Origin: Phycisphaerales bacterium
GTDB taxonomy: Bacteria > Planctomycetota > Phycisphaerae > Phycisphaerales > UBA1924
DNA: 64,000 bases
Direction: 5' to 3'
NCBI GenBank assembly: GCA_020831775.1
Contig: JAFIFZ010000041.1
Coordinates: 1 to 64,000, forward strand
Positions 12,411 through 58,549 of this stretch are shown piece by piece (position 1 is the stretch's first letter; every line of letters begins with the position of its first letter). The position numbers and the translations under genes were made by a program. The notes below the pieces were generated by a model. It ran no database searches, had not been told where the DNA came from, and saw only the letters and a list, made by a program, of their open reading frames with translations.

Positions 12411-12466
12411 TCACAGGACAACCGCCCGGATCGCGCCGGGGCGGAAACAACGGCAGGGATGCACCG

Positions 12467-13756
12467 ATGTCACTTCCTTCTCAGCAGCGTTCGAGCAGAT
12501 CATGGGCGATGACGATGGGCGGGCGGCGTCGCCGCCGTCGCAACTGGAAGCGCCCCGCGATCTTCGCGTTGGCGGTCGTCTGCGCGAGTTCGCTGGCGTG
12601 GGCGGTCTTCCGCGACCGCTCGGGGGCGGAAGCGCCCGAGCTGGCGGCGGTCGGTGAGGCGCCGATCCAGTCTCCCGCCTACCTCGCGACCAACAACACC
12701 GGCGACGCGGGCCCCAGGACCCGCGAGCTGCTCGCCGACCCGCCCACGCAGACTCGCGAGCGTCGGCCAGAGCCCGAGCCGGTGCTGATCTCGCAGGCGA
12801 CGACGCCGACGATCTTCCCCCAGGCGTCGGACACCCAGCCTGCAACCCGGACCGAGACCCGGACCGAGACCCGGTCTGAACCCCGCCCCGAAACCCGCAC
12901 CGAGCCCTCGCGCGAGACGCGGACCGAGACCCCGTCTCGGGAGACCGCCCCGATGGTCTCGCGCGGCACGGTCTCCAACGAGACCCAACGCGAGCTGGAG
13001 CGGGCCGAACGCCTCGTGCGCGAGAACCGCCTCGTCGAGGCCCGCGGCGTGCTGACCGAGGCGCTCCGGCGCGCCGACGCCCGCCCCGCCGACGGCGCCA
13101 AGCTCCGCGAGCGGCTGGGGTCCTTGAACGACGAGCTGGTCTTCTCCCCCCGCGTGCACCCGGGCGACCCGGTGACGATGAACTACAGCGTGCGTTCGGG
13201 CGATGTGCTCAGCCGCATCGTGCGTCGCGAGTCGCTGGCGGTGGACTGGCGTCTGATCACGCGTGTAAACCGGATCGACTCGCCGCAACGGATCCGTGCG
13301 GGCCAGTCGCTGAAGCTGGTGCGCGGTCCGTTCCACGCGGTGGTGCACAAGGGCGACTACCGGCTGGATCTGTGGTGGGGCGATCCGGATCGGCCGCAGT
13401 CGTGGCTGTTCATCCGCTCGTTCGATGTGGGGCTGGGCGAGGAGAACAGCACGCCGGTGGGCGAGTTCCGCGTGATGAGCGGCTCGAAGGTGATCAACCC
13501 GGGCTGGACCAACCCGAGGACCTTCGAGAGCTACAAGCCCAACGACCCCGAGAACCCGATCGGCCGCTACTGGATCGGCATCGAGGGGATCGGCGACGCG
13601 TCGGTGCACACCAGCTACGGGCTGCACGGGACGATCGAGCCCGACTCGATCGGGCGGAGCATGTCGATGGGCTGCGTGCGGATGCACGACGACGACATCG
13701 AGCTGATGTACGAGCTGTTGAGCGAGGGCCGGAGCCGGGTGCGGATCGTGCCGTAA
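12467..13756 (+). CDS. LysM-containing L,D-transpeptidase (YkuD family)
   Basis: A cell-envelope enzyme that cross-links or anchors peptidoglycan. Order in the 429-residue product: a basic N-terminus (GGRRRRRRNWKRP), one transmembrane anchor (about 30-47), a low-complexity Thr/Glu/Arg-rich spacer (about 125-160, repeated TETRTET-like units), a short helical repeat region, a LysM domain (about 240-287) and a YkuD catalytic domain. The catalytic domain contains His387 (HGT) and Cys403 in the SMGCVRM motif, so the active site is intact. The spacer probably spans the periplasm to the wall. It is relevant to the debate on planctomycete peptidoglycan, as it implies a wall substrate. 110 bases separate it from gyrB's leader region. 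Confidence 0.9.
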   Translation: MSLPSQQRSSRSWAMTMGGRRRRRRNWKRPAIFALAVVCASSLAWAVFRDRSGAEAPELAAVGEAPIQSPAYLATNNTGDAGPRTRELLADPPTQTRERRPEPEPVLISQATTPTIFPQASDTQPATRTETRTETRSEPRPETRTEPSRETRTETPSRETAPMVSRGTVSNETQRELERAERLVRENRLVEARGVLTEALRRADARPADGAKLRERLGSLNDELVFSPRVHPGDPVTMNYSVRSGDVLSRIVRRESLAVDWRLITRVNRIDSPQRIRAGQSLKLVRGPFHAVVHKGDYRLDLWWGDPDRPQSWLFIRSFDVGLGEENSTPVGEFRVMSGSKVINPGWTNPRTFESYKPNDPENPIGRYWIGIEGIGDASVHTSYGLHGTIEPDSIGRSMSMGCVRMHDDDIELMYELLSEGRSRVRIVP

Positions 13757-42798: not shown

Positions 42799-43869
42799 AT
42801 GCGCGGACGACGATTCGCGGGCGTGCTGGCTTCGGCGGTGCTCTTTGGTGCGGCGGCTCCCGCCTTATCCCAGGCGGAGCGTGAGTATCCGCGCGGCAGG
42901 CTGGTGCAACCGACGCACGCAGAACTGGTGCAGGCCGCCAACGAGATGTACGCCAAGGCCCTCGGCGAGGCACGGCCCACTCGTGCGTGGCTGGTGCAGC
43001 TCGAGTCTGGCGAGACGATCGAACGCTTCGCGTCTCGGTTCGGGGGCGAGCACTCGTTCACCAAGCCGGGCCAGGACGCGGAGATCGGCTTCCAGGTGCC
43101 CACCGCGGTGCGCGAGATCGCGGTGCGGGGCGACCAGTGGGTCGACAAGGGCGACCTGCTCATCCGGGGCGACGACGCTGAAGACCTCGCGATGGTCGAG
43201 ATCCAGCGCGTGCGCGCCGAGGTGGACCTGCCCGTCAAACGGGCCGATGAGCAGCTCGCCAACGCACGCACCGAGCTGGAAGAGATGCGCAACGCGTTCA
43301 ACCAGGGCGCCGCGACGAGCCAGCAGCTCAACCGCGCCCAGGTCGCGGTGAACATCGCCGAGCTCGATGTGCTGCTCGCCAAGGAAAACCAGAAGCAGGA
43401 GTTGCTGCAACTGAACCGGGCGAAAGCCCGGGCCGACCGCCTGCGCCTCGTCGCGCCGTTCTCGGGGTATGTCGCGTCGATCATGGTCGATGTCGGCGAT
43501 GTGATCCGCGAGACGACGCCGGTGATCCGCGTGGTGCAGCTCGACCCGCTGCGGATCGATGTGCACACGCCGGTGACGCTGATCGAACAACTGTCGATCT
43601 CGCGGGGCGACAGCGCGTGGGTGCTGATCGGGCGTCCGGGCCAGCCCATGGTGATCGAGGGGACAGTGTCTGAGGTGAGCCGCGCCGCGGACTTTGCAAG
43701 CCGCAAGCAGCGCGTGCGGATCGATGTGCCCAACCCCGAGCACATGCAGTCTGGCCTCGCGGCGTGGGTGCGTTTTTCGCCCCCGAGCGAGGAATTGCTG
43801 CAGCAGATGAACGAGACCGTGCCGGCGCCGGTACGGGAAGAAGGTGCGGAGGTCGCGGGCCGTGATTGA
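42799..43869 (+). CDS. Secreted HlyD/RND-type periplasmic adaptor
   Basis: A 356-residue protein with a signal peptide (RFAGVLASAVLFGAAAPALSQA). A half-lipoyl segment follows (VREIAVRGDQWVDKGDLLIRGDD), then a coiled-coil hairpin (EIQRVRAEVDLPVKRADEQLANARTELEEMRN). The second lipoyl half (RLRLVAPFSGYVASIMVDVGDVIRETTPVIRVVQ) comes next, and a beta-barrel domain (IDVHTPVTLIEQLSISRGDSAWV). This is the layout of membrane-fusion proteins of tripartite exporters. Its stop overlaps the GTG start of the next gene by eight bases, marking the first gene of a tightly coupled operon. No outer-membrane channel or inner-membrane pump gene of the classical kind lies next to it. Confidence 0.87.
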   Translation: MRGRRFAGVLASAVLFGAAAPALSQAEREYPRGRLVQPTHAELVQAANEMYAKALGEARPTRAWLVQLESGETIERFASRFGGEHSFTKPGQDAEIGFQVPTAVREIAVRGDQWVDKGDLLIRGDDAEDLAMVEIQRVRAEVDLPVKRADEQLANARTELEEMRNAFNQGAATSQQLNRAQVAVNIAELDVLLAKENQKQELLQLNRAKARADRLRLVAPFSGYVASIMVDVGDVIRETTPVIRVVQLDPLRIDVHTPVTLIEQLSISRGDSAWVLIGRPGQPMVIEGTVSEVSRAADFASRKQRVRIDVPNPEHMQSGLAAWVRFSPPSEELLQQMNETVPAPVREEGAEVAGRD

Positions 43870-45865
43870 TCTGAGCAGGCTCCGTTCGCCGGCATGGCGG
43901 CGCGTCGTCGATGAAGCGGTCAAGCCCTCGCCGGGCGACGAGCACTTTCTCGTCCGGCTGCAGGCGCTGATGTCGCAGGTGTCGACGGCGAAGCGTTCGG
44001 TGCTGTTTACGCTGCCCCAGAGCGCAGGCGAGGATGACTCGCAGGCCGAGCCCCGCCCGGTGTCGGTCTGGCCGATGTCGCCGGGCCAGCAGACGCCCAG
44101 CGGCGACCTGAGCGCGGTCGAGCACGCGGCCGAGTCGCGCCGGGCCGCGGCGGCGGCGCTGGCGGACGGGCAGAGCCGCGTCTTCTCGCTCGATCAGGGC
44201 GACCTGATGTACGGCCAGGACCGCGCGGGGATGATCGTGGCGGTGCCGGTGATCGGCCCGTCTTCGCCCTCCGGTGCGCCGCAGGGGCGCCACGCGGTGG
44301 TGCTGCACCTTGACGCCCGGTCCGACCAGGCGATGCAGGCGACGCTCGCGGTGCTGGAGCTGCTCTCGGGCTACATCCACGGGCACCGCGCGACGCAGGA
44401 ATTGCTTCGTCTTCGCCAGTCGACGATCGCGCTGGACCTCGCCGCGAGGCTGATCGCCTCGATCAACCAGGCCGAGGGGTTCAAGGGCGCGTCGATGCAG
44501 CTCTGCAACGACCTGCAGCGCCAGCTCGGGCTCGACCGCGTGGCCCTGGGCTGGGTGCGCGGGATCGGGGCGTCGGGCGCGGTCAAGGTCGTGGCGATCA
44601 GCGACACCGAGCACATCGACCGGCGCATGGCGATGGTCCGCAAGCTCGAAGGGGCGATGGACGAATGCCTCGACCAGGAGCAGGGGGTGCTCTACCCGCC
44701 CCCGCCCGAGACGGCCGAGGCTCCCGGGCAGGAGGCGGATGTCCTGCTCGGCCAGGCGATCACGCACGCGCACAAGGAGCTCGCCTCGGGCGACGCCAAG
44801 CTGCGCGTGGTCTCGGTGCCGATCCGGGCCGACGACCGCGTGGTCGGCGTGCTGACGGTTGAATCGGCGTCGGAGCAGTCCCCGCTGAATGTGCGTGTGG
44901 CCGAGTGGCTGCAGGCGACGGCCGACCTTGTCGGCCCGGTGCTGAGCGTGCGCCGGAGCGACGACCGCAACCTCGCGCTGCGGACGGCGCACTCTGCGAC
45001 CAAGGCCGGCTCGTGGTTTGTCGGGCCCAGGCACACGGTCTGGAAGATCGCGACGATCGCGGTGCTCTTGCTGATTGTGACGGCGTTCGTGGTCGAGCGT
45101 CCCTACCGCGTCGAGGCGCCCGTCGAGCTGCGCCCGCGCGTGCAGCGTGTGGTGTCGGCGCCGTACTCCGGGGTGCTCGAAGCGCTCGAGGACGGGATCG
45201 AGAAAAACCGGCGCGTCGAGGCGGGGGACATCCTCGCCCGTATGGAGACGCGCGAGCTTCGCCTGATGGCGGTGCGCGCGTCCGAATCGCTGGCGATCGC
45301 CGAGCGCCGGGTCGAGGCGCTGATGTCCGGCCCCGACGAACCCGGACGCGGCGCACAGATCGAGGAAGCGAGGGCCGAGGCCGATGCGGCCAGGGCCGAA
45401 CTCGCCTTCTACAACGAACGCCTCGAAAAGGCCGTGGTGCGGGCGCCGATCGCCGGCATCATCATCGAGGGCGACCTCCGCGAGCGCGTGGGCTCGGCCG
45501 TCGGCATGGGCGATGTGATGTTCATCATCGCGGACATCAACGAGCTCTACGGCGTCGCGAGCGTCGACGACCGCGACATCCGTTTGGTCGAGCAGGCCGT
45601 CGAGGAGGGCCTCGGCCGGCACAGCCTGGCGACCAAGGCCGACCCCGGGCAGCGCTTCGACATCACGATCGAACGCGTCGTCCGCTCGGGCAGGCCCAAG
45701 GACGGGACCAATTCGTTCGAGGTGCGCGTGAGGCTCGACGACCCGGCCCCGTGGCTGCGCCCCGGGATGGAGGGGCTCGTGAAGCTCAACACCGGCGACC
45801 GGTCGATCGCGTCGATCCTGTCGCGCCGGATCATCGATACCGCGCGTCTGTGGCTCTGGATGTAA
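43862..45865 (+). CDS. GAF-domain/transmembrane/HlyD-like adaptor protein
   Basis: 667 residues. The N-terminal 370 residues are cytoplasmic and hold a GAF-like domain (about 195-355: LIASINQAEGFKGASMQLCNDLQRQLGLDRVALGW... VVSVPIRADDRVVGVLTVES). One transmembrane helix follows (about 396-416). The C-terminal 245 residues form a HlyD-type adaptor: RVQRVVSAPYSGVLEALEDGIEKNRRVEAGDILARME, a coiled coil, AVVRAPIAGIIIEGDLRERVG and a beta-barrel. It could couple an intracellular small-molecule or redox signal to the export assembly. Start GTG 43862 is chosen over GTG 43844 because GGAGG lies nine bases before it and it overlaps the previous stop (GTGATTGA). Confidence 0.82.
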   Translation: MIDLSRLRSPAWRRVVDEAVKPSPGDEHFLVRLQALMSQVSTAKRSVLFTLPQSAGEDDSQAEPRPVSVWPMSPGQQTPSGDLSAVEHAAESRRAAAAALADGQSRVFSLDQGDLMYGQDRAGMIVAVPVIGPSSPSGAPQGRHAVVLHLDARSDQAMQATLAVLELLSGYIHGHRATQELLRLRQSTIALDLAARLIASINQAEGFKGASMQLCNDLQRQLGLDRVALGWVRGIGASGAVKVVAISDTEHIDRRMAMVRKLEGAMDECLDQEQGVLYPPPPETAEAPGQEADVLLGQAITHAHKELASGDAKLRVVSVPIRADDRVVGVLTVESASEQSPLNVRVAEWLQATADLVGPVLSVRRSDDRNLALRTAHSATKAGSWFVGPRHTVWKIATIAVLLLIVTAFVVERPYRVEAPVELRPRVQRVVSAPYSGVLEALEDGIEKNRRVEAGDILARMETRELRLMAVRASESLAIAERRVEALMSGPDEPGRGAQIEEARAEADAARAELAFYNERLEKAVVRAPIAGIIIEGDLRERVGSAVGMGDVMFIIADINELYGVASVDDRDIRLVEQAVEEGLGRHSLATKADPGQRFDITIERVVRSGRPKDGTNSFEVRVRLDDPAPWLRPGMEGLVKLNTGDRSIASILSRRIIDTARLWLWM

Positions 45866-45923
45866 GCCGGCACGCGATCAGAAACACACCGGCCCCGCGA
45901 AGCGGGGCGGAGGCTGAACAGCC

Positions 45924-48089
45924 TTGGCCGAGAGACCGACATTCTCACCCTTCTGGCACCGCGTTCGGGCGCTCAAGCCCCGCCTGCGCCCGCATGTGCA
46001 GGTGACGCGTCAGCACTACCGCGGGCGGCGCTGGCATGTCGCCCACGACCCGACGACCAACCAGTTCTTCCGCCTGAACCCGATCGGGCACGAGCTCGTC
46101 GGCCTGCTGGACGGCAAGCGGACCGTCGAAGAGGTCTGGACGATCCTGCTGCAGCGTCACGGCGACGACTCGCCGACGCAGCAGGAGGCCCTGCAGCTGA
46201 TCGGGCAGCTCTACAGTTCCAACCTGCTCAGCGTCGATGCCCCGCCAGAGACCGAGCAGCTCCTGCGGCGCGGGCGCGAGCGTCGCAAGAAGAAGGCGAT
46301 GGGCCAGGCCGTGGGCCTGATGTACTTCAAGATCAGGCTGTTCAACCCCGACGGGATCTTCGCCTGGCTGGAGCCTCTGTTCCGCCCGATCCTCAACCGC
46401 GTGGGTTTTTTCGTGTGGCTGGCGGTGGTGCTCGGTGCGATCGTCGCGATCCTGCCGCACTTTGACCGCCTGGCCGCGAGCGTCGACAACACGCTTGCGC
46501 CGGCGAACTGGGGCTGGCTGACTGTGGTGTTCATCGTCACCAAGGCGATCCACGAGATCGGGCACGGGGTGGTGCTCAGACGCTTCGGCGGGCAGGTGCC
46601 CGAGTTCGGCGTGATGCTGCTGGTGCTCTTCCCTGCGCCGTATGTCGACGCGACGGCGTCGTGGGCGCTGGAAAGCAAGTGGAAGCGGATCGCCGTGGGC
46701 TCGGGCGGGATGATCTTCGAGCTCTTCGTGGCGGCGATCGCGGCGATGGTCTGGCTCTCGACCGAGCCGGGGGCACTGATCCACCAGATCGCGTACAACG
46801 CGATGTTCATCGCGAGCATCTCGACGATCCTGTTCAACGCCAACCCGCTGATGCGCTTCGACGGGTACTACATCCTGAGCGACCTGCTGGAGGTGCCCAA
46901 CCTCATGCAGCGTGCGCAGAACATGATCAAGCACTTCTTCAAGCGCTACGCCTTCGGGATCGAGAACGACCAGCCCCCCACCACCAACGCCGGCGAGCGT
47001 CGGATCCTGGTGACCTACGGGATCCTGGCGCTGGCGTACCGCGTGTTCCTGTTCATCTCGATCACGCTGTTTGTGATGGGCAAGATGTTCGCCCTGGGCC
47101 TGCTGCTTGCGATCTGGACGGGCGCGATGTGGTTCGTGCTGCCGGTGGGTAAGTTCGTGCACTGGCTGGCCTCGCACCCCTCGCTCCTGGACAAGCGCGT
47201 CCGGGCGGTGACGGCGACGCTGCTGATGCTCGCGATCGGCGTGGGCTCCCTCGGGATGATCCCGTTCCCGGACTGGCGGAAGGCCTCGGGCGTGGTCGAG
47301 CCGGCGCGCCGGTCGGGCGTCTTCTTCGCCTCCGACGGGTTCATCGTCGAATCCTTCGTCTCGCCCGGAGAGCGGGTCGGCGCGGGCGACGCCATCGTGA
47401 CGATCGACAACCCCGAGCTGCGCGTCGAGCTGGCGACGGCCCGGGCCGAGCTCACCCGCGCCGAGGTGCGCTGGCGTTCGGCCCTCGCTCGCTCTTCGCC
47501 CGCGGCCGACGAGCTGGCCGAGGCGGTCATGAACCTCACCGAGCGCGTCGCGATCCTTGAAAACCGCATCGACCGCCTGACGGTCCGGGCCCCGCACGCC
47601 GGGGTGATCGCCGGGGCCGACCCGGCGGAGTTCGTCGGCGCGTGGGTGGAGGAAGGAACGGCGATCTGCGAGATCGTCGAGGACCGTGGCTCGCGCATCG
47701 TCGCGACGCTGAGCCAGCGTGAGAACACCTGGGCGATCCGGCACGCGACGGGCAACCTGCCCGTGGTCGCCAGCGTCCGTTTTCTGTCCGACGCGGGCAG
47801 GAGCATCGAGGGGAACATCGTCGAGGTCGTCGAGTCGGGCCAGAGCCGCCTGGCCCACGCGTCGCTGGGCTACGCCGGCGGCGGGACGATCGCGACCGAC
47901 CCGCAGGACGAGTCGGGGACGATGGCGACCAGCCGCCAGTTCGAGCTCCGGATCGTGCCCGCCGACGGCGAGCCGACGGGCGCGCCCGGCGAGCGTGTGC
48001 GTGTGCGTTTCACGCTGCCAAGCCGTCCGCTGATGGCCCAGTGGGCCGACCGCCTGCACAAACTGGTGCAGGGCCGAGTGACGCTCTAG
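45924..48089 (+). CDS. PqqD-like/M50 metalloprotease/HlyD fusion (peptide zinc metalloprotease-like)
   Basis: 721 residues in three parts. About 20-105 resembles a PqqD/RiPP-recognition domain (VQVTRQHYRGRRWHVAHDPTTNQFFRLN, HELVGLLDGKRTVEEVW). About 155-450 is a polytopic M50 site-2-protease core with HEIGH (210-214) and the third-ligand motif NPLMRFDGYY (Asp313). About 455-715 is a periplasmic HlyD-like lipoyl/coiled-coil/barrel region (SDGFIVESFVSPGERVGAGDAIVTIDNPELRVEL; RLTVRAPHAGVIAGAD). Zinc ligands and the catalytic Glu211 are intact. It starts with TTG 45924 after GGAGG, 58 bases past the GAF-HlyD gene. The family is related to the YydH-type proteases of peptide-export loci. The substrate is unknown. 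Confidence 0.85.
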   Translation: MAERPTFSPFWHRVRALKPRLRPHVQVTRQHYRGRRWHVAHDPTTNQFFRLNPIGHELVGLLDGKRTVEEVWTILLQRHGDDSPTQQEALQLIGQLYSSNLLSVDAPPETEQLLRRGRERRKKKAMGQAVGLMYFKIRLFNPDGIFAWLEPLFRPILNRVGFFVWLAVVLGAIVAILPHFDRLAASVDNTLAPANWGWLTVVFIVTKAIHEIGHGVVLRRFGGQVPEFGVMLLVLFPAPYVDATASWALESKWKRIAVGSGGMIFELFVAAIAAMVWLSTEPGALIHQIAYNAMFIASISTILFNANPLMRFDGYYILSDLLEVPNLMQRAQNMIKHFFKRYAFGIENDQPPTTNAGERRILVTYGILALAYRVFLFISITLFVMGKMFALGLLLAIWTGAMWFVLPVGKFVHWLASHPSLLDKRVRAVTATLLMLAIGVGSLGMIPFPDWRKASGVVEPARRSGVFFASDGFIVESFVSPGERVGAGDAIVTIDNPELRVELATARAELTRAEVRWRSALARSSPAADELAEAVMNLTERVAILENRIDRLTVRAPHAGVIAGADPAEFVGAWVEEGTAICEIVEDRGSRIVATLSQRENTWAIRHATGNLPVVASVRFLSDAGRSIEGNIVEVVESGQSRLAHASLGYAGGGTIATDPQDESGTMATSRQFELRIVPADGEPTGAPGERVRVRFTLPSRPLMAQWADRLHKLVQGRVTL

Positions 48090-48100
48090 GAGTTCCGCCC

Positions 48101-50083
48101 GTGTCGCAGGCCCTGACGAGGTACCACGCCCTTTACGAGTCGCTGATGAGCCGTCGGCGCGCCGAGCGCACGCTCAAGGGGCTCGACAAGGCCGCGGCGT
48201 GGACACGGATGAAGCTGACGACGCAGGGGTCGAGCCTTCGCGTCCTCAAGCGCGAGGCGGAACAGATCGACGCGATGGCGCCGAAGGTCCGGGGGTATTC
48301 CGAGGCGGTGCTCGACGAGGCGATCGGGCGCGTGCGCGAGCGGTTCCTGCTGCGCACCGACGACAAGGAGACGGTCCGCGAGGGGATGGCGCTGGCCCGC
48401 GAGGTCGCCCGGCGCCTGACGGGCGAGGAGGCCTACACAGTGCAGCTCGTCGGGGCGCTCGGGCTGTATCGCGGGCGGATCGTCGAGATGCTCACCGGCG
48501 AGGGCAAGACGCTCACGGGCTCGATCGCGGCGGTGATGCTCGCATGGAAGTACCGGCGCGTGCATGTGTTCACGGTGAACGACTATCTGGCCGGGCGTGA
48601 CGCCGAGAGCCGCGAGGCGATCTATACGCGCTGCCGCCTGACGGTCGGGGCGATCCAGCAGGAGCAATCGCCCGACGAGCGGGCGACGATCTACGCGCGC
48701 CACATCGTCTACGGGACGCCCAAGCAGATCACCGCCGATTACCTGCGCGACCAGCTCCGCATCCGCCCCATGGCGACCGCGTGGGCGGGCAGGCAGATGA
48801 TGGCCCGGTTCGGCAACGCGGCGGGCGCGGGGCCGATCGTGCCCGGGCTGTGCGTGGCGCTGGTCGACGAGGCGGACGCGGTCCTGATCGACGAGGGCGT
48901 GGTGCCGCTGATCATCGCGCGCAGCCGTCGCGAGGACGACATGGCGGCGGTCTACCTCGGCGCCGCGGAGATCGCGAGAAAGCTCGACGAGGGCCCGGAC
49001 TTTTCCGTCGACCGGCTTCGACGCAAGGCGGAGCTGAAGAGCCGCGGGCTGCACCGGGCTCGCCGGATGTGGGCCGAGCGTCCCGAGGCGATCTGGAAGG
49101 CCGACCGGCGTGCCGAGGAACTGGTGCGTCAGGCGCTCGTTGCCCGCTGCTGCTACCTGCGGGGGCGTCAGTACGAGATCGTCGACGGGCAGGTCGTCAT
49201 CGTCGACGAGTACACCGGCCGCTTCCTGCACGACCGGAGCTGGGAGCACGGGCTGCACCAGGCCGTCGAGGCCAAGGAGGGGCTGGAGGTCACCGCCGAC
49301 CGCGAGACCCTCGCACGCCTGAGCTTCCAGCGGTTTTTCCGGAGCTACCCGGTGCTGTGCGGGATGACGGGCACCGCGGCCGACGCGATGCGCGAGATGG
49401 AGACGGTCTACCGGCGCCCGGTCCTCTGCGTGCCGACCAACCGGCCGATCGTCCGCAAGAAGCTCCCGACGCGGATCTTCGCCGAGGCCGAGTCGAAGAT
49501 CGATGCGATCGTCGAGGAGATCGACCGCCTGCACGCCCTGGACCGCCCGGTGCTGGTGGGCACGCGGTCGATCGAGGTCTCGCAGTTGATCTCCGAGCGG
49601 TTGACCGCGCGCGGGCTGGAGCACAGGGTGCTCAACGCCCTGCAACACGCGGAGGAGTCCGAGCTCGTCGAGCACGCGGGCGCCGCGGGGGCCATCACCG
49701 TCGCGCCCAACATGGCCGGGCGCGGGACCGCCATCCGCCTGGACGATCGTGCGAGGCAGGCGGGCGGGCTCGCGGTGATCCTGACGGAGATGCACGGGGC
49801 CAAAAGGATCGACCGCCAGTTCATCGGGCGTTCCGGTCGCCAGGGGGACCCGGGCTCTTCGCAGATCTTCGCCGCCCTCGACGACGACCTGCTCACCCAG
49901 CACGCGCCCGACCTTCGGACGGTCTTCAAGAGGCCCGGGCTCCGGGGCGAGCTCCGCCAGACCAAAGCCACGGCGGCCGCCTTCAGGGTCGCCCAGCGAC
50001 GCAGCGAGGCCCGCGACCGGCGCAATCGCGCCGCGGTGCTCCGCCAGGACGACTGGATCGACGAGCACCTGCCCGGTTCGTAA
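48101..50083 (+). CDS. SecA-like DEAD motor ATPase (shortened SecA paralogue)
   Basis: A 660-residue SecA homologue, against about 900 in housekeeping SecA. Preserved: the Walker A GEGKTL loop (Lys136), TVNDYLAGRD, DEAD-box D256-E-A-D259 followed by AVLIDEG, the MTGTAA motif, PNMAGRGTAIRL and the final GRSGRQGDPGSS with ALDDDL. The preprotein cross-linking region is reduced and the helical wing and zinc-binding C-terminal tail are absent. So it is probably not the general SecA but an accessory motor with a narrow client. The GTG start at 48101 follows AGGAG and is 11 bases past the M50 gene, last in the operon. Confidence 0.88.
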   Translation: MSQALTRYHALYESLMSRRRAERTLKGLDKAAAWTRMKLTTQGSSLRVLKREAEQIDAMAPKVRGYSEAVLDEAIGRVRERFLLRTDDKETVREGMALAREVARRLTGEEAYTVQLVGALGLYRGRIVEMLTGEGKTLTGSIAAVMLAWKYRRVHVFTVNDYLAGRDAESREAIYTRCRLTVGAIQQEQSPDERATIYARHIVYGTPKQITADYLRDQLRIRPMATAWAGRQMMARFGNAAGAGPIVPGLCVALVDEADAVLIDEGVVPLIIARSRREDDMAAVYLGAAEIARKLDEGPDFSVDRLRRKAELKSRGLHRARRMWAERPEAIWKADRRAEELVRQALVARCCYLRGRQYEIVDGQVVIVDEYTGRFLHDRSWEHGLHQAVEAKEGLEVTADRETLARLSFQRFFRSYPVLCGMTGTAADAMREMETVYRRPVLCVPTNRPIVRKKLPTRIFAEAESKIDAIVEEIDRLHALDRPVLVGTRSIEVSQLISERLTARGLEHRVLNALQHAEESELVEHAGAAGAITVAPNMAGRGTAIRLDDRARQAGGLAVILTEMHGAKRIDRQFIGRSGRQGDPGSSQIFAALDDDLLTQHAPDLRTVFKRPGLRGELRQTKATAAAFRVAQRRSEARDRRNRAAVLRQDDWIDEHLPGS

Positions 50084-50192
50084 CGCGTCGGCGCATGGCG
50101 TCGCGTTCGGTTCCGTACCGCGGCTGGGCCGCCCGCTATCCTGCTGGCTCGGAGCCGTGCCGGACCCCCGAATCAGACGGAAAACACCTTTT

Positions 50193-53100
50193 ATGCCCAA
50201 CGCTCGACGCGTACTCCCGATTCTGGCCTCGCTGCTCCTTGTTTTCTGGTCGTCTCCGCTGTTGGGCCAGGGCAACGCCGCGGGGCCGGGCCCGCAGACC
50301 GTCGAGGAGTCGGCCCGCCCCGCCGAATCGACCCGGCCGCAGGAGGTCAGCGCCGAGGCGATCGACGCGCTGGCCAGGCGGGTCGCAGAAAGCCCGAACA
50401 TCAGCGCCGCCGACCGGGAGCGGATCGATACGGCGCTGCGCACCGCCCAGGAGTCGCTGTCGGCGCAGGCTCAGCGTGCTTCGGCGGGGGAGCAGTTCCG
50501 CACGCAGGCCAACGAGGCGCCCCAGCGGATCGCCGAGATCAGAGAACGCCTGCTGCGTCAGCGCGAAGAGGTCGACCGGGCCCGGTTCGCGGAGATGAGC
50601 CTCGCGGAGATGGAGGCGGAGCTGGCCAGAGCCCGGTCGGAGCTGGCCCGACACCAGCAGGAGATCACGAGGCTGGAGGGTGAGCCCGAACGACGCACCG
50701 CAAGGCGGGCCGCGCTGCGCGAGCTGCAGCCCCAGCGTGAGTCGGAGCTGGCGACGGTCGAGCAGGCGCTGGCCGCCCCGCCCGACGACGCCGTCGACGC
50801 CATCGTCACGCGGGCCCAGCGGTACCAGCTGCTCGCCCGCCAGCGCGAGCTTCGCACACGGATCGCGACGAACAACGAAGAGCTCCGGTACCTCGACGCG
50901 ACCGACACCGCGATCGGCCCGCAGCTGGAGCTGGAGGTCAGGCGGCGCGACCGCGCCCAGCAGGAGGTCGCCTTCCTGCAGCAGCGCGTCGACGAGATCC
51001 GGCGCGACACCGCACGCGTGCGCACCGAGCGGGCCCGCGAACTCGCGCGCCTGACGGCCGCCCAACCGGCGCAGGTACCCGAGTTCGCCGAAAGGAACAT
51101 CGAACTCGCCCAGGCCCTCGCCGAGATGACCCAGCGCGTCGGCGACCTTGAAACCAGCGTGGACCGGCAGCGGGCCGAGCTCTCGCGCGTGCTGGCCGAC
51201 TTCGAGCGGACGCGCGAACGCGTGCGGGCGATCGGGCTGGACGCGGCGCTCGGCGCCGTGCTCAAGAGGGCCCGCGCCAACCTGCCCGACCAGCGCCGCC
51301 TCACCCAGCAGATCGAGAACCGGCGCAGGGAGTACAGCGAGATCGAGCTGATGCGTTTCGATGTGCTCGAAGAGCGACCGCTCATCACCGAGTACCGCGA
51401 AAAGCTCAACCAGGCTCTGCCCGAGGCCGACCGAGAACGCTACTCCGTCGCCGTCAGCGAGCTCGTCGAGTTGCGGCGCGACCTGGTCAACGACCTGATC
51501 GGCCTTGCGACCCGCTACGGCTCGCGCTGGAGCGACTACGACAAAACCGTTGGCGACCTGCGGATCGTCTCGGGCGGGTTCGCGTCGTTCATCGACGAAC
51601 GCGTGCTCTGGATCCGCAGCCACAGCGTGCTGGGCGATTGGAGCCCGGCCCGCCTCGCCCGCCTGGTCGAGTACGCCGGCTCGCCCGGGGCCTGGAGACG
51701 CTGGGTCGAGGCGGTGGTGCGCTCGCCCCTGACCACCCTCGGGGCGGCGCTGATCGCGATGCTGGCGATCCTTGTGAACCCCCCGCTGCGCAAGTGGGCC
51801 AGATCGTTCGACGAGCTGGCCCGCAAGCGTGAGGGGATGAAGGTCTCCATCACGCTCAAGGCGATGCTCGCCGAGCTGCTGGTGGTCACGCCGATGGCGG
51901 CCATTCTCTTTGCCGCGGGCGTCTCCCTCCGCCAGGCGCCCGACGGGATGCCTGTGGCGGTCGGCCTCGCGCTGGGCGACGCGGCGTGGATCGTGCTCTC
52001 GCTGCGCTTCTTCCAGCGCCTGCTCCGCCCGGGCGGGGTGGCGATCAACCACTTCCGCTGGAACAACACCTCGACGGGCATCGTCCGGCGACACCTCCGC
52101 TGGTACATCCCGCTGATCACGATCTCGTACGCGTCGCTGCGCGCCGCCGAGTCGATGAGCGAACAGCTCGACCCGCTCGACACGATCGGCAGGACCGCGT
52201 TCATCGTCGCGATGGCGGCGGTGGGCGCGTTCGTATGGTGCGTCGCCCGCCCGAGCGGAACCGTGATGGCCCCCTTCCTCAAGGCCAACAAGGGGGGCTG
52301 GCTCGACCGCACCCGCTACCTCTGGTTCGACGCGGCGATCGCCGCCCCCGCGGTGCTCATCGTGCTCGCCGCCCTGGGGTTCGTCTACACCGCCTCGGAG
52401 ATCGAGGACCGCTTCCGCCTCACGCTCGGGCTGGTGCTGGGGCTCATCCTGATCGGCGGGGTGCTGCAGCGCTGGCTGTACATCGCCCGACGCAAGCTCG
52501 CGATCGAGCAGGCGATCCGCGCCCGCGAGGCTCGCCTGGCCGAGCTCAAGGCGCAGGCCGAGCAAGCCGAGAAGGCCGAGAAGGGCGAAGTGCCCGAGGA
52601 GCCGAAGCAGAAGGGCGAGGAGATCGACAAGGTCGACGAGGACAAGGTCAACATCCCAGGCCTCGACGCCCAGACCCGCCACCTCATCCGCTTCGCCATC
52701 ACCATCACGCTGGTCATGAGCCTCTGGGGCATCTGGAACCCCGTGCTGCCCGCCCTGAACATGCTCGACCGCGTCGAGCTCTACCCCCGCCTGACCATCG
52801 CCGACGAGCGCGAACAGACCGAGAGCCCCGAAGTGCTCGAAGCGCTCCAGCGCTACCGGGGCGAGCCCGCCCCCGCCCCGCTGCTGACCGACGATGAGGG
52901 GCTCCCCCCCGTCGAAACGCCCGCGAGGGAAGCGACCCCCGGCTCGCCGGCCTTCCCGGGCATGCCCCCGGGCGGCATGACGCCAGGCCTCGAACCCAGG
53001 CCCGCAGAAGAACAGGCCGGCCTGCCCCTGACCGACGCGCTCACGCTCTCTGACCTGCTCACGGCGATCGTCTTCACGGTCATCGCGTTCGTCGCGGTGC

Positions 53101-53912
53101 GCAATGTCCCCGCCGTCATCGAGATCATCCTGCTGCAGCGCCTGCCGCTCGACAGCGGCGGGCGCTTCGCCGTCAGCACCATCGTGCGCTACATCCTCAC
53201 CGGCATCGGCATCTTCGTCGTCGCCGGCGCGGTGGGGATCAGCTGGACCAATGTGCAGTGGCTCGTCGCGGCGTTGACCTTCGGCCTGGCCTTCGGCCTC
53301 CAGGAGATCTTCGCCAACTTCGTCTCGGGCATCATCATCCTGCTCGAACGCCCCATCCGCGTGGGCGATGTCGTCACCGTCGGCGACACGAGCGGACGCA
53401 TCAGCAAAATCCAGATGCGAGCCACCACCATCACCGACTGGGACCGCAAGGAACTCATCGTCCCCAACCGCGAGTTCATCACCGGACGCGTCATCAACTG
53501 GTCGCTCTCAGAAGACACGCTCCGCGTCGTCGTGGAAGTCGGCATCGCCTACGGCGCTGACACCAAGCTCGCCCACGAGACGCTGCTCCGCGTCGCGCGC
53601 GAACACCCCGATGTCATGAAAGACCCCGAACCCAGCTGCTGGTTCATGGGCTTCGGCGACAACTCGCTGAACTTCCGCCTCGCCGCCTTCGTCCCCCACA
53701 TCTCCTTGAACCTGTCGACCCGCCACTCGCTGCACATGAAGATCGACGAGGAGTTCCGCAAGGCCGGGCTCGAGATCTCCTTCCCCCAGCGCGACCTGCA
53801 CCTCCGCTCGATCGACGACAAGGTCGTCAAACTCTTCAAGGACGCGGGCGACCAGATCAGGCCGAGCGACAACTCGCCCCCGCTCAAATCGTCGGACCAG
53901 AAAAGCGGCTGA
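50193..53912 (+). CDS. Large MscS-family mechanosensitive channel (MscK-like)
   Basis: A 1239-residue inner-membrane channel for osmotic protection. Layout: signal peptide (RRVLPILASLLLVFWSSPLLG), then a very long periplasmic coiled-coil region (about 50-500, Arg/Glu/Gln-rich). Roughly eleven membrane helices follow, interrupted by a charged cytosolic loop (about 785-830) and a Pro/Gly-rich one (about 890-945). The MscS pore and beta domain come last: FGLAFGLQEIFANFVSGIIILLERPIRVGDVVTVGD, then DWDRKELIVPNREFITGRVINWSL. The Gly/Ala pore helix is intact. ATG 50193 is used; a GTG at 50157 would only add 12 residues before the signal peptide. It begins 109 bases after the SecA-like gene and may be independent of that operon. 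Confidence 0.92.
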   Translation: MPNARRVLPILASLLLVFWSSPLLGQGNAAGPGPQTVEESARPAESTRPQEVSAEAIDALARRVAESPNISAADRERIDTALRTAQESLSAQAQRASAGEQFRTQANEAPQRIAEIRERLLRQREEVDRARFAEMSLAEMEAELARARSELARHQQEITRLEGEPERRTARRAALRELQPQRESELATVEQALAAPPDDAVDAIVTRAQRYQLLARQRELRTRIATNNEELRYLDATDTAIGPQLELEVRRRDRAQQEVAFLQQRVDEIRRDTARVRTERARELARLTAAQPAQVPEFAERNIELAQALAEMTQRVGDLETSVDRQRAELSRVLADFERTRERVRAIGLDAALGAVLKRARANLPDQRRLTQQIENRRREYSEIELMRFDVLEERPLITEYREKLNQALPEADRERYSVAVSELVELRRDLVNDLIGLATRYGSRWSDYDKTVGDLRIVSGGFASFIDERVLWIRSHSVLGDWSPARLARLVEYAGSPGAWRRWVEAVVRSPLTTLGAALIAMLAILVNPPLRKWARSFDELARKREGMKVSITLKAMLAELLVVTPMAAILFAAGVSLRQAPDGMPVAVGLALGDAAWIVLSLRFFQRLLRPGGVAINHFRWNNTSTGIVRRHLRWYIPLITISYASLRAAESMSEQLDPLDTIGRTAFIVAMAAVGAFVWCVARPSGTVMAPFLKANKGGWLDRTRYLWFDAAIAAPAVLIVLAALGFVYTASEIEDRFRLTLGLVLGLILIGGVLQRWLYIARRKLAIEQAIRAREARLAELKAQAEQAEKAEKGEVPEEPKQKGEEIDKVDEDKVNIPGLDAQTRHLIRFAITITLVMSLWGIWNPVLPALNMLDRVELYPRLTIADEREQTESPEVLEALQRYRGEPAPAPLLTDDEGLPPVETPAREATPGSPAFPGMPPGGMTPGLEPRPAEEQAGLPLTDALTLSDLLTAIVFTVIAFVAVRNVPAVIEIILLQRLPLDSGGRFAVSTIVRYILTGIGIFVVAGAVGISWTNVQWLVAALTFGLAFGLQEIFANFVSGIIILLERPIRVGDVVTVGDTSGRISKIQMRATTITDWDRKELIVPNREFITGRVINWSLSEDTLRVVVEVGIAYGADTKLAHETLLRVAREHPDVMKDPEPSCWFMGFGDNSLNFRLAAFVPHISLNLSTRHSLHMKIDEEFRKAGLEISFPQRDLHLRSIDDKVVKLFKDAGDQIRPSDNSPPLKSSDQKSG

Positions 53913-54276: not shown

Positions 54277-56103
54277 TCACTTCGCCGCGACGAGCTGGTG
54301 ATTGGCGATCAGCCTGTAAACCTCGCAACGCTCCAGGAGCTCGGCGTGGCGCCCGCGGTCGACCACCTCGCCCCCGTCCATCACGACGATGCTGTCGGCG
54401 TTTTTGACGGTGCTCAGGCGGTGGGCGACGACCAGGCAGGTCCGCCCCGCGCTGAACTCCGCCAGCGCCTCGCCGATCCGCGCCTCGCTGTCGGCGTCGA
54501 TCATGCTCGTCGCCTCGTCGAGGATCAGGATCGCCGGGTCGCGCAGGATCGCCCGCGCGATCGCGATCCGCTGACGCTGACCGCCAGAGAGCGTCGAGCC
54601 ACGCTCACCCACCACCGTTTCGTACCCCTCGGGCAGAGACTCGATGAACTCGGCCGCCCGGGCCTGCCTCGCGGCCGAGCTGATCTGCTCCGGCGTCGCG
54701 CCGCTCATGCCGTAGGCGATGTTCTCGCGGATCGTCGCGCCGAACAGGACCGTCTCCTGCGTCACCACGCCGATCTGGCGCCGGAGGCTCCGCACCCCGA
54801 CACTCGCGATGTCCGTCCCGTCGACGAGCACGCGCCCCTCGGTCGGGTCGAACAGGCGGGGCACCAGCGAGAGCAGCGTCGTTTTGCCCGAGCCGTTGGG
54901 CCCGACGACCGCGACCGTCGTCCCGTGGGCGACCTCCAGGTCGACCCCCCGCAGCGCGGGCGTCGCGGCGCCGGGGTAGGTGAACCCCACGCCCTCAAAA
55001 CGCACCGACTCCTTGTGGCGCCCGAGGCGCGGCAGGCCCGCGTCGTGCCCGGGCTCGGGCTCGGTGTCCAAGAGCTGCTTGATCCGCTCCGCTGCGGCCG
55101 CGGCCGTCTGGATCTCGTTGACGATCCCCGTCAGAGGTTTCAGCGACGCCGCGGCGATGAACAGCGCCCCGAGCGTGAGCAACATCTTCGAAGGGTCCAG
55201 CGCGTTGTCGATGATGATGAGCCTGGCCGCCAGGATCGTCAGCAGACCCAGCGAGAACAGCGCGATCACCTCGTTGAGCGGGCTCATCAGCGCCCGGGCG
55301 GTCCGCGCCCGCAAGAGGTGGCGCATCACGGCCTTGTTGATCGTGTGGAACCTCGCCGATTCGTGGCGCTCGTTCGTGTGCACCTTCACCACGCGCAGGC
55401 CCTGCAGCGCCTCGCTGGCGGCGCCGTACAGGTCCGCCTGACGCTCCAGCGCCCGCCGGGTGTAGCGACGGATCCGAGTCGAGAGCTTGCGGATCACCAC
55501 CGCGATCACCAGGCCCGCGAAGATCGCCGCGATCGAGAGCTTCCAGTCCAGAATCAGCGCCGCCGCAAACGCGGCCACGCCCTTGAGCGTCTGCGCCACC
55601 GCCCGCGAGAGCAACGCCGTCATGCCCGAGGCGAGCTGCGTCGTGTCGTTGACGATGCGGCTGATCGCATCGGATGTCCCGTGCGAGACCGCCAGCCCCA
55701 GCGGCATCCGCAGCACCCGCGAAAACAGCCGCCGACGGATGTCCGTCACCGCCTTGTACACCACCGACAGCGACAGATAGGCGTGGAAAAAATTCGTCAC
55801 CCCGCCGACGACCGTCACCACGCCAAGCGCGACCATGATCGCCACGACCGCGTTGAACGGCCCCTCGGGCAGGCGCTCGATCACCCATTGGGGAACGGCG
55901 ACGAAGGGGTCGCCCGCGTTGTACGCCTCGGCCCGCTCGGGCAGCCCCTCGCGCGAGCCCTCGAAGATCGTCTCGAGGATCGGGTAGACCGCCAGCAGCC
56001 CCGCCCCGAGCCCCGACGCCGAGACCAGCGCGCACAGGAGCGCCAGCGTGATCCGCACCCGATCACGGAGCATCCGCCCTGCGAATCCCCAGAAGGCGTT
56101 CAT
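54277..56103 (-). CDS. ABC exporter, fused permease/ATPase (MsbA-like)
   Basis: A 608-residue half-transporter exporting lipids, lipid-linked molecules or drugs as a homodimer. The N-terminal half has six membrane helices, with the coupling-helix region VVYKAVTDIRRRLFSRVLRMPL. The C-terminal ATPase has Walker A GPNGSGKT (Lys407), Q-loop VVTQETVLFG, signature LSGGQRQR, Walker B ILILDEAT and H-loop VAHRLS, all intact. The GYETVVGERGSTLSGGQ stretch is typical of the MsbA/lipid A exporter branch. First gene of a minus-strand pair with the zinc-ribbon protein. Confidence 0.93.
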   Translation of the reverse strand: MNAFWGFAGRMLRDRVRITLALLCALVSASGLGAGLLAVYPILETIFEGSREGLPERAEAYNAGDPFVAVPQWVIERLPEGPFNAVVAIMVALGVVTVVGGVTNFFHAYLSLSVVYKAVTDIRRRLFSRVLRMPLGLAVSHGTSDAISRIVNDTTQLASGMTALLSRAVAQTLKGVAAFAAALILDWKLSIAAIFAGLVIAVVIRKLSTRIRRYTRRALERQADLYGAASEALQGLRVVKVHTNERHESARFHTINKAVMRHLLRARTARALMSPLNEVIALFSLGLLTILAARLIIIDNALDPSKMLLTLGALFIAAASLKPLTGIVNEIQTAAAAAERIKQLLDTEPEPGHDAGLPRLGRHKESVRFEGVGFTYPGAATPALRGVDLEVAHGTTVAVVGPNGSGKTTLLSLVPRLFDPTEGRVLVDGTDIASVGVRSLRRQIGVVTQETVLFGATIRENIAYGMSGATPEQISSAARQARAAEFIESLPEGYETVVGERGSTLSGGQRQRIAIARAILRDPAILILDEATSMIDADSEARIGEALAEFSAGRTCLVVAHRLSTVKNADSIVVMDGGEVVDRGRHAELLERCEVYRLIANHQLVAAK

Positions 56104-56221: not shown

Positions 56222-58549
56222 TCAGGCCTGCGAGCCCGGCTGGAAGCGGGCATCGGTCAGCGGGACAATCTCGCCGAACTGGATCGGGCCCGACGCGATC
56301 AGCCGGTTCATGTCGCCCGCGCGATTGTCCTGCCGCTGGAGCGACGCGACGATCGGGGCGGGCGTGCTGCCGTTGATCTCGAAGCTCTCAACCATGATGC
56401 TGAAGTTGGCGAACCGCTCTGGGTCGGTGTCGACCTTGCTGAGCACCTGGGCGTTGTCCTCGGGCCGGATGTTGACGGGCGAAAAAGCCGGGACGGTGAC
56501 CAGCGAGGTCTGGATCGTCGAGCCGTCGTCGAACCGGTAGGTCAGGCGGACGGTGACATTCTGGTTGGGGAATGGGTTGTAGAGGCTGATCGACTCGCGG
56601 GCGCCCTCGGAGGAGCTGATGCGGTCGACGAACGAGTCGGCGAAGTGATGGACCGTCGCCGCGTTGCGCAGCCCGTGCACCGCTGTGCCGCCGACGGGAC
56701 CGCCCGCGGGCGCGCCGCTCTGCGTGCCGTAGTCGACCGTGACGCCGGTGACGAACTGACGCCCGCTCAACGCGTCGATGAAAAGAGTGAACGGCTGGTC
56801 GCGAGCGATCGTCGAGATGTTGTCGATCTGGGTGTTCAGCACCAACTGGTTGCGGGTGTTGTTCTCGAGCTGGAAGCCGGGAGTGATCGTGGCCACATTC
56901 CCCGGGGAGGTTTCGACAAACGCGCGGATCGTGAAGCCGGGGCTCACACTGCCGCCGACATTCAGAATCGACAGCACCGCACGCCCGCCCGTCGGCACCA
57001 CGACATTCGGAATGATCGTGGTCCGCGCGCCCTCGTTCGGCACGCCCGAGAGCGTCGACGAACGGGGCGGCAGTTCGTCGTTGGCGATGAACGAGCTCGC
57101 GGCGACCGCGATCTCCCTGTCCGCCTCGACGCGGACGCTCACCAGCGTGTTGGCGGGCAGGCCGGCGATCGACCCGACCGCCGACAGGTCCACGCCGCCG
57201 CGGCGGTTCGCGCCCAGCGTGAAGTCCGCCGTCTCTTCGAGCGAGGCGTTGAACTCGTTGCGGTAGAAGATCGTGACCGTCAGCTCGGCGCTGGAGCTGG
57301 TCAGGTTCTGCCAGACGATGAAGCTGCGGGCGTCCAGGCCGCTGAGCACGCCCGCGAAGTTCCACGCCGTCGCCCGGTCGCCCGGATTCTCGGCCACCAG
57401 CACGAACGACTCGCCCGTGTCGTCGCCGAAGTCGAAGCGGTTGATCGAGGCGGCGATCGCCGCGGGGTCGCCCGACTCGACCGGCGCCGAGTAGACCTCC
57501 AGCGCGTACGGGTTGAACTGCTCGACCAGCGAGTTCTCGGGGTCCGACGAGTCGTGGAGCGTGATGTTGACCGTCGCGTTGGCGGGGATGGTGATCTCCG
57601 TCAGCGTGGTGTCGCGCATCCCGAACTCGTAGCGGGCGATCACCTGCACCTGCACATCGGTGTTGTGCGGGTTGACGAGTTTGAGCGTCTCGGTCGAGGT
57701 CGGCGAGGCGTAGCCCTCGGGGTAGACGACCATGTTGGTGTAGAAGGCCGTCCCATCGCCCGTCTTGACGATCTGGGCGTTCAGGAGTTGCACCAGGTTC
57801 CCGGGCTGCACATCGCCCGTGAAGGTGTTGACGATCGGGACCTGGGTGAAAGCGCTGGTGGTGACTCGGGGCGAGTTCCCTTCGGGATCGGTCGTCGAGA
57901 AGCCATTCGAGTCGGTGAAGAGCGGGTTGCCGAACCGATCGCGGATCTGGCCCGCAAACGCGCTCTGGCCGCTCAGGTCCTGCTGGTTCAGGTCGGCGAT
58001 GAGCTGGACGACCGTCCATGAGGCCTCACCGAGCACGCGTCCGAAGACGGTGAAGCCCTGGTTCTGCGTGTCGAGGCTCGGGTTGTCGTTCAGGTTGAAG
58101 AAGAACTGGCTGGTCGCCGAGTTGGGGTTGTTTTCGAGCTTGGCCATCGCGATCGTGCGTTCGAGGTTCGGGCGGCCGAACTCGTTCTGGATCGGGCCCA
58201 GGTCGGGCTCGAAGATCTGGCGATAGCCCTCGTTCTCGTTGAAGACGAACCCGCCGCCCTGCAGGACGAAATCGTCGACCGCGCGGTGGAAGAAGCTCTC
58301 GGAGTACTGGCCCCGCTTGACATACTCAAGGAAGTTCGCGACCGTGCCCGGCGCGTCCTGGGGGAACAGCTCGAGGAAGACCCGCCCGACATTCGTGTCG
58401 AACATCACCACCGGGTTGGTGTCCAGCTCCAGGGCCGACAACGCCGGCAGGCCGTCGATCGCCGCAAGCACGATCCGAGGCTCAAGACGCTCGAACATTT
58501 CGGCCGCGAACGCGCCGCGACCACGACCGTAAAATCGATCTGACACCAT
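56222..58549 (-). CDS. Secreted cyclophilin-type peptidyl-prolyl isomerase with LEPR sorting motif
   Basis: A 775-residue extracellular protein. The N-terminus contains MFERLEPRIVLAA (18-30), a variant of the planctomycete LEPR-XLL sorting motif, in place of a normal signal peptide. The cyclophilin domain follows (about 45-230), with VGRVFLELFPQDAPGTVANFLEYVKRGQYSESFFHRAV, VLQGGG, and ATSQFFFNLNDNPSLDTQNQGFTVFGRV. The catalytic-type Arg of the FHR motif is present. The remaining 540 residues are a beta-rich region with repeated Asn/Thr/Val patterns (VNPHNTDVQVQV, VPTGGRAVLSILN, YNPFPNQNVTV), perhaps for adhesion or surface binding. ATG 58549 is used. A strong terminator follows the stop. Confidence 0.88.
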   Translation of the reverse strand: MVSDRFYGRGRGAFAAEMFERLEPRIVLAAIDGLPALSALELDTNPVVMFDTNVGRVFLELFPQDAPGTVANFLEYVKRGQYSESFFHRAVDDFVLQGGGFVFNENEGYRQIFEPDLGPIQNEFGRPNLERTIAMAKLENNPNSATSQFFFNLNDNPSLDTQNQGFTVFGRVLGEASWTVVQLIADLNQQDLSGQSAFAGQIRDRFGNPLFTDSNGFSTTDPEGNSPRVTTSAFTQVPIVNTFTGDVQPGNLVQLLNAQIVKTGDGTAFYTNMVVYPEGYASPTSTETLKLVNPHNTDVQVQVIARYEFGMRDTTLTEITIPANATVNITLHDSSDPENSLVEQFNPYALEVYSAPVESGDPAAIAASINRFDFGDDTGESFVLVAENPGDRATAWNFAGVLSGLDARSFIVWQNLTSSSAELTVTIFYRNEFNASLEETADFTLGANRRGGVDLSAVGSIAGLPANTLVSVRVEADREIAVAASSFIANDELPPRSSTLSGVPNEGARTTIIPNVVVPTGGRAVLSILNVGGSVSPGFTIRAFVETSPGNVATITPGFQLENNTRNQLVLNTQIDNISTIARDQPFTLFIDALSGRQFVTGVTVDYGTQSGAPAGGPVGGTAVHGLRNAATVHHFADSFVDRISSSEGARESISLYNPFPNQNVTVRLTYRFDDGSTIQTSLVTVPAFSPVNIRPEDNAQVLSKVDTDPERFANFSIMVESFEINGSTPAPIVASLQRQDNRAGDMNRLIASGPIQFGEIVPLTDARFQPGSQA

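Follow-up and report, generated by a model that had tools for sequence, protein, structure and literature searches.

We analysed a stretch of 64,000 nucleotides from a Phycisphaerales bacterium (GenBank assembly GCA_020831775.1, contig JAFIFZ010000041.1, positions 1 to 64,000; hereafter the window), in which four neighbouring genes at positions 42799-50083 encode a standalone HlyD-type adaptor, a GAF-HlyD fusion, a PqqD-M50-HlyD fusion and a shortened SecA-like motor (hereafter SecA2). This cluster probably serves to export a dedicated set of proteins, which it would recognise by an N-terminal LEPR-XLL leader, and the assignment of LEPR-leader proteins as its likely cargo is well supported. 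The locus type is not new, as Kamneva, Poudel and Ward described a secondary SecA_DEAD / type I-related locus in 2015, for which no substrate was named (PMC4452313). New here are the LEPR-XLL proteins as likely cargo; no link between LEPR-XLL and secretion machinery was found in the partial collection of literature that was searched, and the terms PqqD, LEPR and cadherin were not found in the main text of PMC4452313.

Proteins of the LEPR-XLL family were recognised with the NCBIfam model NF012209 (LEPR-8K), and M50 proteins scoring at least 490 bits were designated A-type. Among 378 Pseudomonadota genomes, LEPR-8K was present in 39 and an A-type M50 in 36, with both in 32 (Fisher p=2.8e-35; this and the following co-occurrence p-values ignore shared ancestry). 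The remaining seven of the 39 LEPR-positive genomes all carry a divergent (B-type) M50, and one of the four genomes with an A-type M50 and no LEPR-8K (G385) encodes an adjacent LEPRLLFS protein that was absent from the profile-search list. In 156 Planctomycetota genomes, LEPR-8K occurred in 11 of 15 with an A-type M50 but in only 3 of the remaining 141 (p=2e-11). When the order of the host was left out, the counts were 2 of 4 and 3 of 139, respectively (p=0.006). Across many phyla, 41 of 50 named M50-positive genomes encode LEPR-8K. A better argument than these p-values is provided by the occurrence in many phyla and by the linkage of the genes on the DNA. SecA2 is likewise paired with the M50 subtype, being present in 32 of the 36 Pseudomonadota genomes with an A-type M50 (two of the 32 with partial or degenerate copies only) and in none of the 30 tested Pseudomonadota genomes without it.

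Twenty-nine of 52 Pseudomonadota LEPR genes are located at most 16 kb from an M50 gene, mostly on the same strand and mostly directly 5' of the GAF-HlyD gene (binomial p~1e-35, with an assumed chance rate of 2%). The gap between LEPR and M50 genes is typically 1.7-2.7 kb and thus leaves room for the GAF-HlyD gene in between. By their coordinates, frames adjoining the system reach 9,978 codons in Geomonas paludis, 12,896 in Thioclava pacifica and 14,390 in a Sulfuritalea metagenome-assembled genome (MAG); the longest frame observed (19,427 codons) lies on a contig without a listed M50. Annotated plasmid records independently show the same gene order, with LEPR-XLL, HlyD, site-2 protease, SapC, SecA2 and adaptor on a Pseudosulfitobacter plasmid, LEPR-XLL, DUF3467, adaptor, PqqD, SecA2 and adaptor on a Pontibrevibacter plasmid, and, in Methylosinus, a giant gene with the leader IFDTLEPRVLLNAD followed by DUF3467, adaptor, PqqD, SecA2, adaptor and TolC. 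On these plasmids, genes annotated as 'DEAD/DEAH helicase' or 'prepilin peptidase' were identified as SecA2 by their scores. In Alisedimentitalea, the adjacent giant lacks a LEPR motif where its annotation begins; this start may have been placed wrongly.

The core shared by 65 leaders follows a basic stretch and reads [FL]E-x-LEPR-[LVI]-LL-S-[AG]-D, with E or D at position -2 in 63 of the leaders and S after LEPRxLL in 55. Because the leaders were gathered with a motif filter, the motif letters are not independent evidence, whereas E at position -2 and S-[AG]-D after the motif are. A hydrophobic segment exceeding 2.0 (Kyte-Doolittle, 12 residues) was found in 3% of the LEPR leaders versus 81% of HlyD adaptor controls; the LEPR leaders are basic in character and show no hydrophobic core of the kind found in Sec signals. 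The standalone HlyD adaptor of the window has a Sec signal-like segment, MRGRRFAGVLASAVLFGAAAPALSQA, at its N-terminus. Domains of the putative cargo are of secreted or extracellular type and include subtilase with P-domain and PPC, matrixin, amidase, and cadherin/Ig repeats.

The host genome encodes two LEPR-8K proteins above the cut-off, C16 (2673 residues) and C46 (1875 residues), and a further candidate with a LEPR-like leader is encoded in the window itself. The latter protein of 775 residues is 34-35% identical over about 540 residues to proteins from Phycisphaerales in which a LEPRVLLDA leader is evident. A pattern search for more LEPR genes in the host genome returned five matches versus five in a reversed-pattern control. 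The extra pattern match that was inspected (L251) is antisense to a dCTP-deaminase-like open reading frame (ORF). In the comparison of named loci, a LEPR match at 10730-12700 of locus L179 was discarded as antisense to M50.

Several observations weigh against the proposed export of LEPR proteins by the cluster. In the order of the host, M50 was found in 19 of 21 genomes and LEPR-8K in only eight, with two genomes (G013 and G018) having neither, as expected. A scan of the M50 surroundings in ten LEPR-negative relatives revealed one divergent LEPR-like leader (LEQRKML, G016), and other cargo or undetected leaders are therefore possible in this order. The LEPR-like gene of the window lies 6 kb from the cluster on the opposite strand, and its divergent leader is missed by NF012209. 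Genes of the OEP family are recurrent neighbours of the system in many relatives, and several are present in the host genome, but none adjoins the window cluster, the nearest match being about 28 kb onward. Lastly, LEPR genes are also accompanied by B-type M50 clusters that have no SecA2 at all, so that SecA2 cannot be essential for every LEPR protein. In LEPR-positive Pseudomonadota, B-type clusters (L252-L259) consist of HlyD, a short GAF-HlyD, M50 and sometimes OEP, with a LEPRIMLDAA-type leader in L252.

The arrangement in the window is not a chance one, since the order GAF-HlyD, M50 and SecA2 is repeated in almost every one of 80 named loci drawn from many phyla. GAF-HlyD is directly 5' of the M50 gene in nearly all compared loci, and SecA2 comes next after M50 in 69 of the 80 (69 of 75 with the next gene visible); in five of the 11 loci without it, the contig ends at or just past the M50 gene. 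A preliminary description of the window had set beforehand, as tests of its proposal, that the gene families should co-occur elsewhere and that the SecA-like gene should not be the sole SecA. The gene set indeed recurs in related and distant genomes, and the host genome has three SecA_DEAD genes, i.e., a canonical secA on contig C64, the window SecA2 and a third gene on C83. The latter belongs to a second copy of the system (C83, 7971-15911) that comprises M50, GAF-HlyD and SecA and is preceded by a DUF3467 gene and followed by genes of MoxR and DUF58-like type; its M50 protein is 34% identical to that of the window. The closest named relative is a Phycisphaerales MAG (98% identity). The preliminary description, which spoke of a planctomycete envelope, missed that the locus type is not specific to planctomycetes.

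The ORFs of the cluster and their Pfam domains above cut-offs bear out the four-gene set with three HlyD-type adaptors, a SecA-family protein and no ABC pump, and its placement outside the classical secretion systems holds, as it forms a coherent, non-classical export and processing set. By mechanical ORF starts, neighbouring genes are separated by a 26-base overlap, a 58-base gap and a 49-base overlap; the upper value of the previously given spacing of 11 to 58 bases is reproduced, while the lower one hinges on the start codon chosen. Like the locus described in PMC4452313, the window encodes a SecA_DEAD protein without SecA_SW beside a canonical SecA in the same genome, with M50-HlyD, HlyD and GAF-HlyD neighbours, and both share the truncated secondary SecA, the broad distribution and the sometimes adjacent OEP. 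Our account differs in two respects from the published one, in which the M50 protein was proposed as pore: protease activity is favoured here by an invariant HExxH motif, and LEPR proteins are named as the likely cargo.

In the confident AlphaFold2 (AF2) model of the M50 protein (mean predicted local distance difference test score (pLDDT) 89), a bundle of membrane helices is flanked by a PqqD domain and an adaptor of MexA type, for which Foldseek gave MexA/AcrA/MacA as best matches. Pfam recognises PqqD (1e-8), Peptidase_M50 (4e-7) and HlyD_3 (5e-9). Residues H210, E211, H214 and D313, the last in the later NPLxRxDGY motif, are invariant in 49 M50 sequences, and HExxH is kept in all 126 A-type M50 proteins checked, which argues that protease activity is retained. 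We agree with the preliminary description that the PqqD domain points to recognition of a leader. PqqD is a known peptide-binding fold, and among curated families the M50 protein is nearest to the proteases of daptides (NF041824, daptide_HExxH; 7e-57 over the PqqD and M50 regions) and of YydH/LiaK epipeptides (NF058609), with which it shares an M50 domain with HExxH and a leader-processing context. These relationships would suit maturation and export of short peptides in the manner of ribosomally synthesized and post-translationally modified peptides (RiPPs). However, the M50 protein stays below both cut-offs (193.2 of 300 bits and 54 of 225 bits, respectively), is fused to HlyD, and is linked to genes for giants and not for small precursor peptides; furthermore, no RiPP-modifying enzyme family recurs among the clustered neighbours. 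Given the scores under cut-off and the giant-protein neighbours, we rejected the peptide route as the principal interpretation and consider it very improbable.

SecA2 retains NBD1, PPXD and NBD2 (nucleotide-binding domains 1 and 2 and the preprotein cross-linking domain), with Pfam scores of 3e-80 for SecA_DEAD, 2e-22 for SecA PP_bind and 1e-48 for the SecA P-loop. The Walker A motif GEGKT, a DEAD-type Walker B motif and GRxGRQGDPG are largely invariant across 38 SecA2 sequences; the window SecA2 has NMAGRGTAIRL where aligned relatives read NMAGRGTDI. The profile of the SecA2 family reaches only to about residue 609 of Bacillus subtilis SecA, within the first scaffold helix, and Pfam detected no SecA_SW domain in the window SecA2. 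Given this end point and the known domain order of SecA, SecA2 lacks the greater part of the helical scaffold as well as the wing domain and two-helix finger, through which SecA normally contacts SecY. The AF2 model of SecA2 has a mean pLDDT of 87.8, and its true start may be downstream of 48041, since residues 1-21 were modelled with a pLDDT below 50.

By analogy with the SecA2 systems of Gram-positive bacteria, where an additional SecA likewise serves only some of the exported proteins, the cluster could be viewed as an accessory to Sec, in which SecA2 feeds LEPR proteins to SecYEG and M50 and the HlyD proteins act later in cleavage and outer-membrane passage. In agreement with this, SecA2 keeps NBD1-PPXD-NBD2, its model can be superposed on the SecA of SecY complexes (best TM-score match 0.80, SecA from the SecA-SecY complex 6itc), no obvious translocon is encoded in the cluster, and Kamneva et al. 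group these proteins beside actinobacterial SecA2 (PMC4452313). Yet SecA2 ends in the first scaffold helix, without the wing and two-helix finger, and LEPR leaders are without the hydrophobic core of Sec signals. We regard delivery to SecYEG as unlikely, albeit the most credible of the alternatives. The locus departs from Gram-positive SecA2 systems in that most of the scaffold, the wing and the finger are missing, in its M50/HlyD partners and in its occurrence in bacteria with an outer membrane. A SecY family was not recognised among the recurrent neighbours of SecA2 loci.

Adaptors of HlyD/MexA type and OEP proteins are shared with type I and tripartite efflux systems (HlyBD-TolC, MacAB-TolC, AcrAB-TolC). 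It is conceivable that LEPR giants exit via an ABC pump encoded elsewhere, directed by a C-terminal RTX signal, and that the M50/SecA2 cluster merely processes or tethers them. A Vibrio LEPR-XLL giant bears C-terminal RTX domains (PMC10868602), the 15,831-residue giant of Methylobacterium extorquens AM1 has RTX-type repeats (PMC2680597), and the adaptor and OEP proteins resemble type I parts. In contrast to type I and tripartite systems, however, the cluster has no ABC, RND or MFS pump, contains a SecA-type ATPase and an M50 protease, and is associated with an N-terminal leader. An ABC family is not a core neighbour, being found near only 6 of 101 SecA2 loci, several cargo proteins show no RTX domain, and the SecA ATPase would be left without a role. 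Export by type I is accordingly improbable in our judgement.

Export of LEPR proteins by the cluster itself could proceed as follows. The PqqD domain of the M50 protein would bind the basic LEPR leader at the inner membrane, and SecA2, whose motor motifs are intact and thus suggest a pushing role, would clamp the unfolded chain by NBD1-PPXD-NBD2 and push it by ATP hydrolysis. The M50 metalloprotease, whose invariant active site suggests leader cleavage, would cut close to where the leader ends, around SA|D or SG|D. The standalone HlyD, GAF-HlyD and M50-HlyD adaptor domains would line a passage through the periplasm that leads to an outer-membrane channel of the TolC/OEP type, with gating or sensing as the presumed task of the GAF domain. 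The preliminary description had proposed cleavage and export of a specific class of peptides or proteins; co-occurrence and adjacency point to large LEPR proteins and not to peptides, and we infer the cleavage and the complex. GAF and M50 domains are also common in signalling, and the GAF gene of strain AM1 is expressed apart from the others (PMC4452313), as might be expected for a signalling protease that performs regulated intramembrane proteolysis with GAF sensing and no export. However, export is what a set with three adaptor domains, a SecA-type motor and OEP neighbours would suit, and the recurrent neighbours include no family of anti-sigma factors or transmembrane regulators, which makes a purely signalling function the least credible of all. 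It is tempting to go further and propose a separate pathway, in which the LEPR leader directs its carriers, ranging in length from hundreds to about 19,000 residues, across the inner and outer membranes independently of SecYEG. The apparatus would be driven by SecA2 and gated by M50, and the SecA2-less B-type clusters would form a sister branch that uses the same signal. We advance this extended proposal tentatively and hold it to be somewhat doubtful.

Proteins of more than 5,000 residues are among the largest bacterial gene products, and the question addressed here is by which route those without a signal peptide reach the surface. The proposed apparatus would explain how many bacteria manage to export giants that have no ordinary signal peptide and can reach a length of about 19,000 residues. 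It would also provide a likely function for a SecA paralogue that was reported in 2015 without one, and a likely role for the LEPR motif family, which is mentioned only in passing in the literature searched. With a defined leader, protease and motor, export of giants becomes testable by single deletions. M. extorquens AM1 encodes the giant META1_2412 (PMC2680597) and a SecA2 operon, META1p2399-2402 (PMC4452313). By gene number alone, META1_2412 is about ten genes away from this operon and is its putative cargo, which is a testable prediction for this strain.

Coordinates of the cluster, its domains and the candidate cargo gene are listed in Table 1. The standalone HlyD adaptor additionally fits Pfam HlyD_D23 above cut-off.

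Table 1 Features of the export cluster and of the candidate cargo gene in the window
Feature	Position	Strand	Evidence
Standalone HlyD/RND-type periplasmic adaptor	42799..43869	+	Pfam HlyD_3 4e-12; NCBIfam RND_mfp 2e-31
GAF-HlyD: predicted cytosolic GAF region, then periplasmic adaptor	43844..45865	+	Pfam GAF 3e-6, HlyD_3 8e-13
PqqD-M50-HlyD fusion: predicted leader-binding domain, intramembrane metalloprotease, periplasmic adaptor	45924..48089	+	
PqqD domain, residues 38-102 of M50 protein	46035..46229	+	Pfam PF05402
HExxH zinc-protease motif (HEIGH, residues 210-214)	46551..46565	+	Invariant catalytic residues
C-terminal HlyD/MexA-like adaptor domain of M50 protein, residues 447-702	47262..48029	+	AF2, Foldseek
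SecA2: SecA-like motor, NBD1 + PPXD + NBD2	48041..50083	+	Pfam, profile, AF2
Candidate cargo, 775 residues, LEPR-like leader and cyclophilin domain	56222..58549	-	Translation; Pfam Pro_isomerase 8e-31
LEPR-like leader MVSDRFYGRGRGAFAAEMFERLEPRIVLAA of the candidate cargo	58460..58549	-	Translation; fits [FL]E-x-LEPR-x-[LV]-L

A gene for a MscK/MscM-like mechanosensitive channel (50157-53912, + strand) begins 73 bases 3' of SecA2. It was rejected as a part of the system, as it adjoins the system only in the window among the loci compared. Between this gene and the LEPR-like gene, an ABC transporter with fused membrane and ATPase domains is encoded at 54277-56103 (- strand). The canonical SecA of the host genome is encoded in an unusually long frame of 1425 codons, with insertions relative to SecA2. 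Several copies of the system in proteobacteria (L178, L264 and L301) include or adjoin a SapC-family gene, and 18 Escherichia and eight Citrobacter plasmids encode a distant relative of the M50-HlyD protein of the window.

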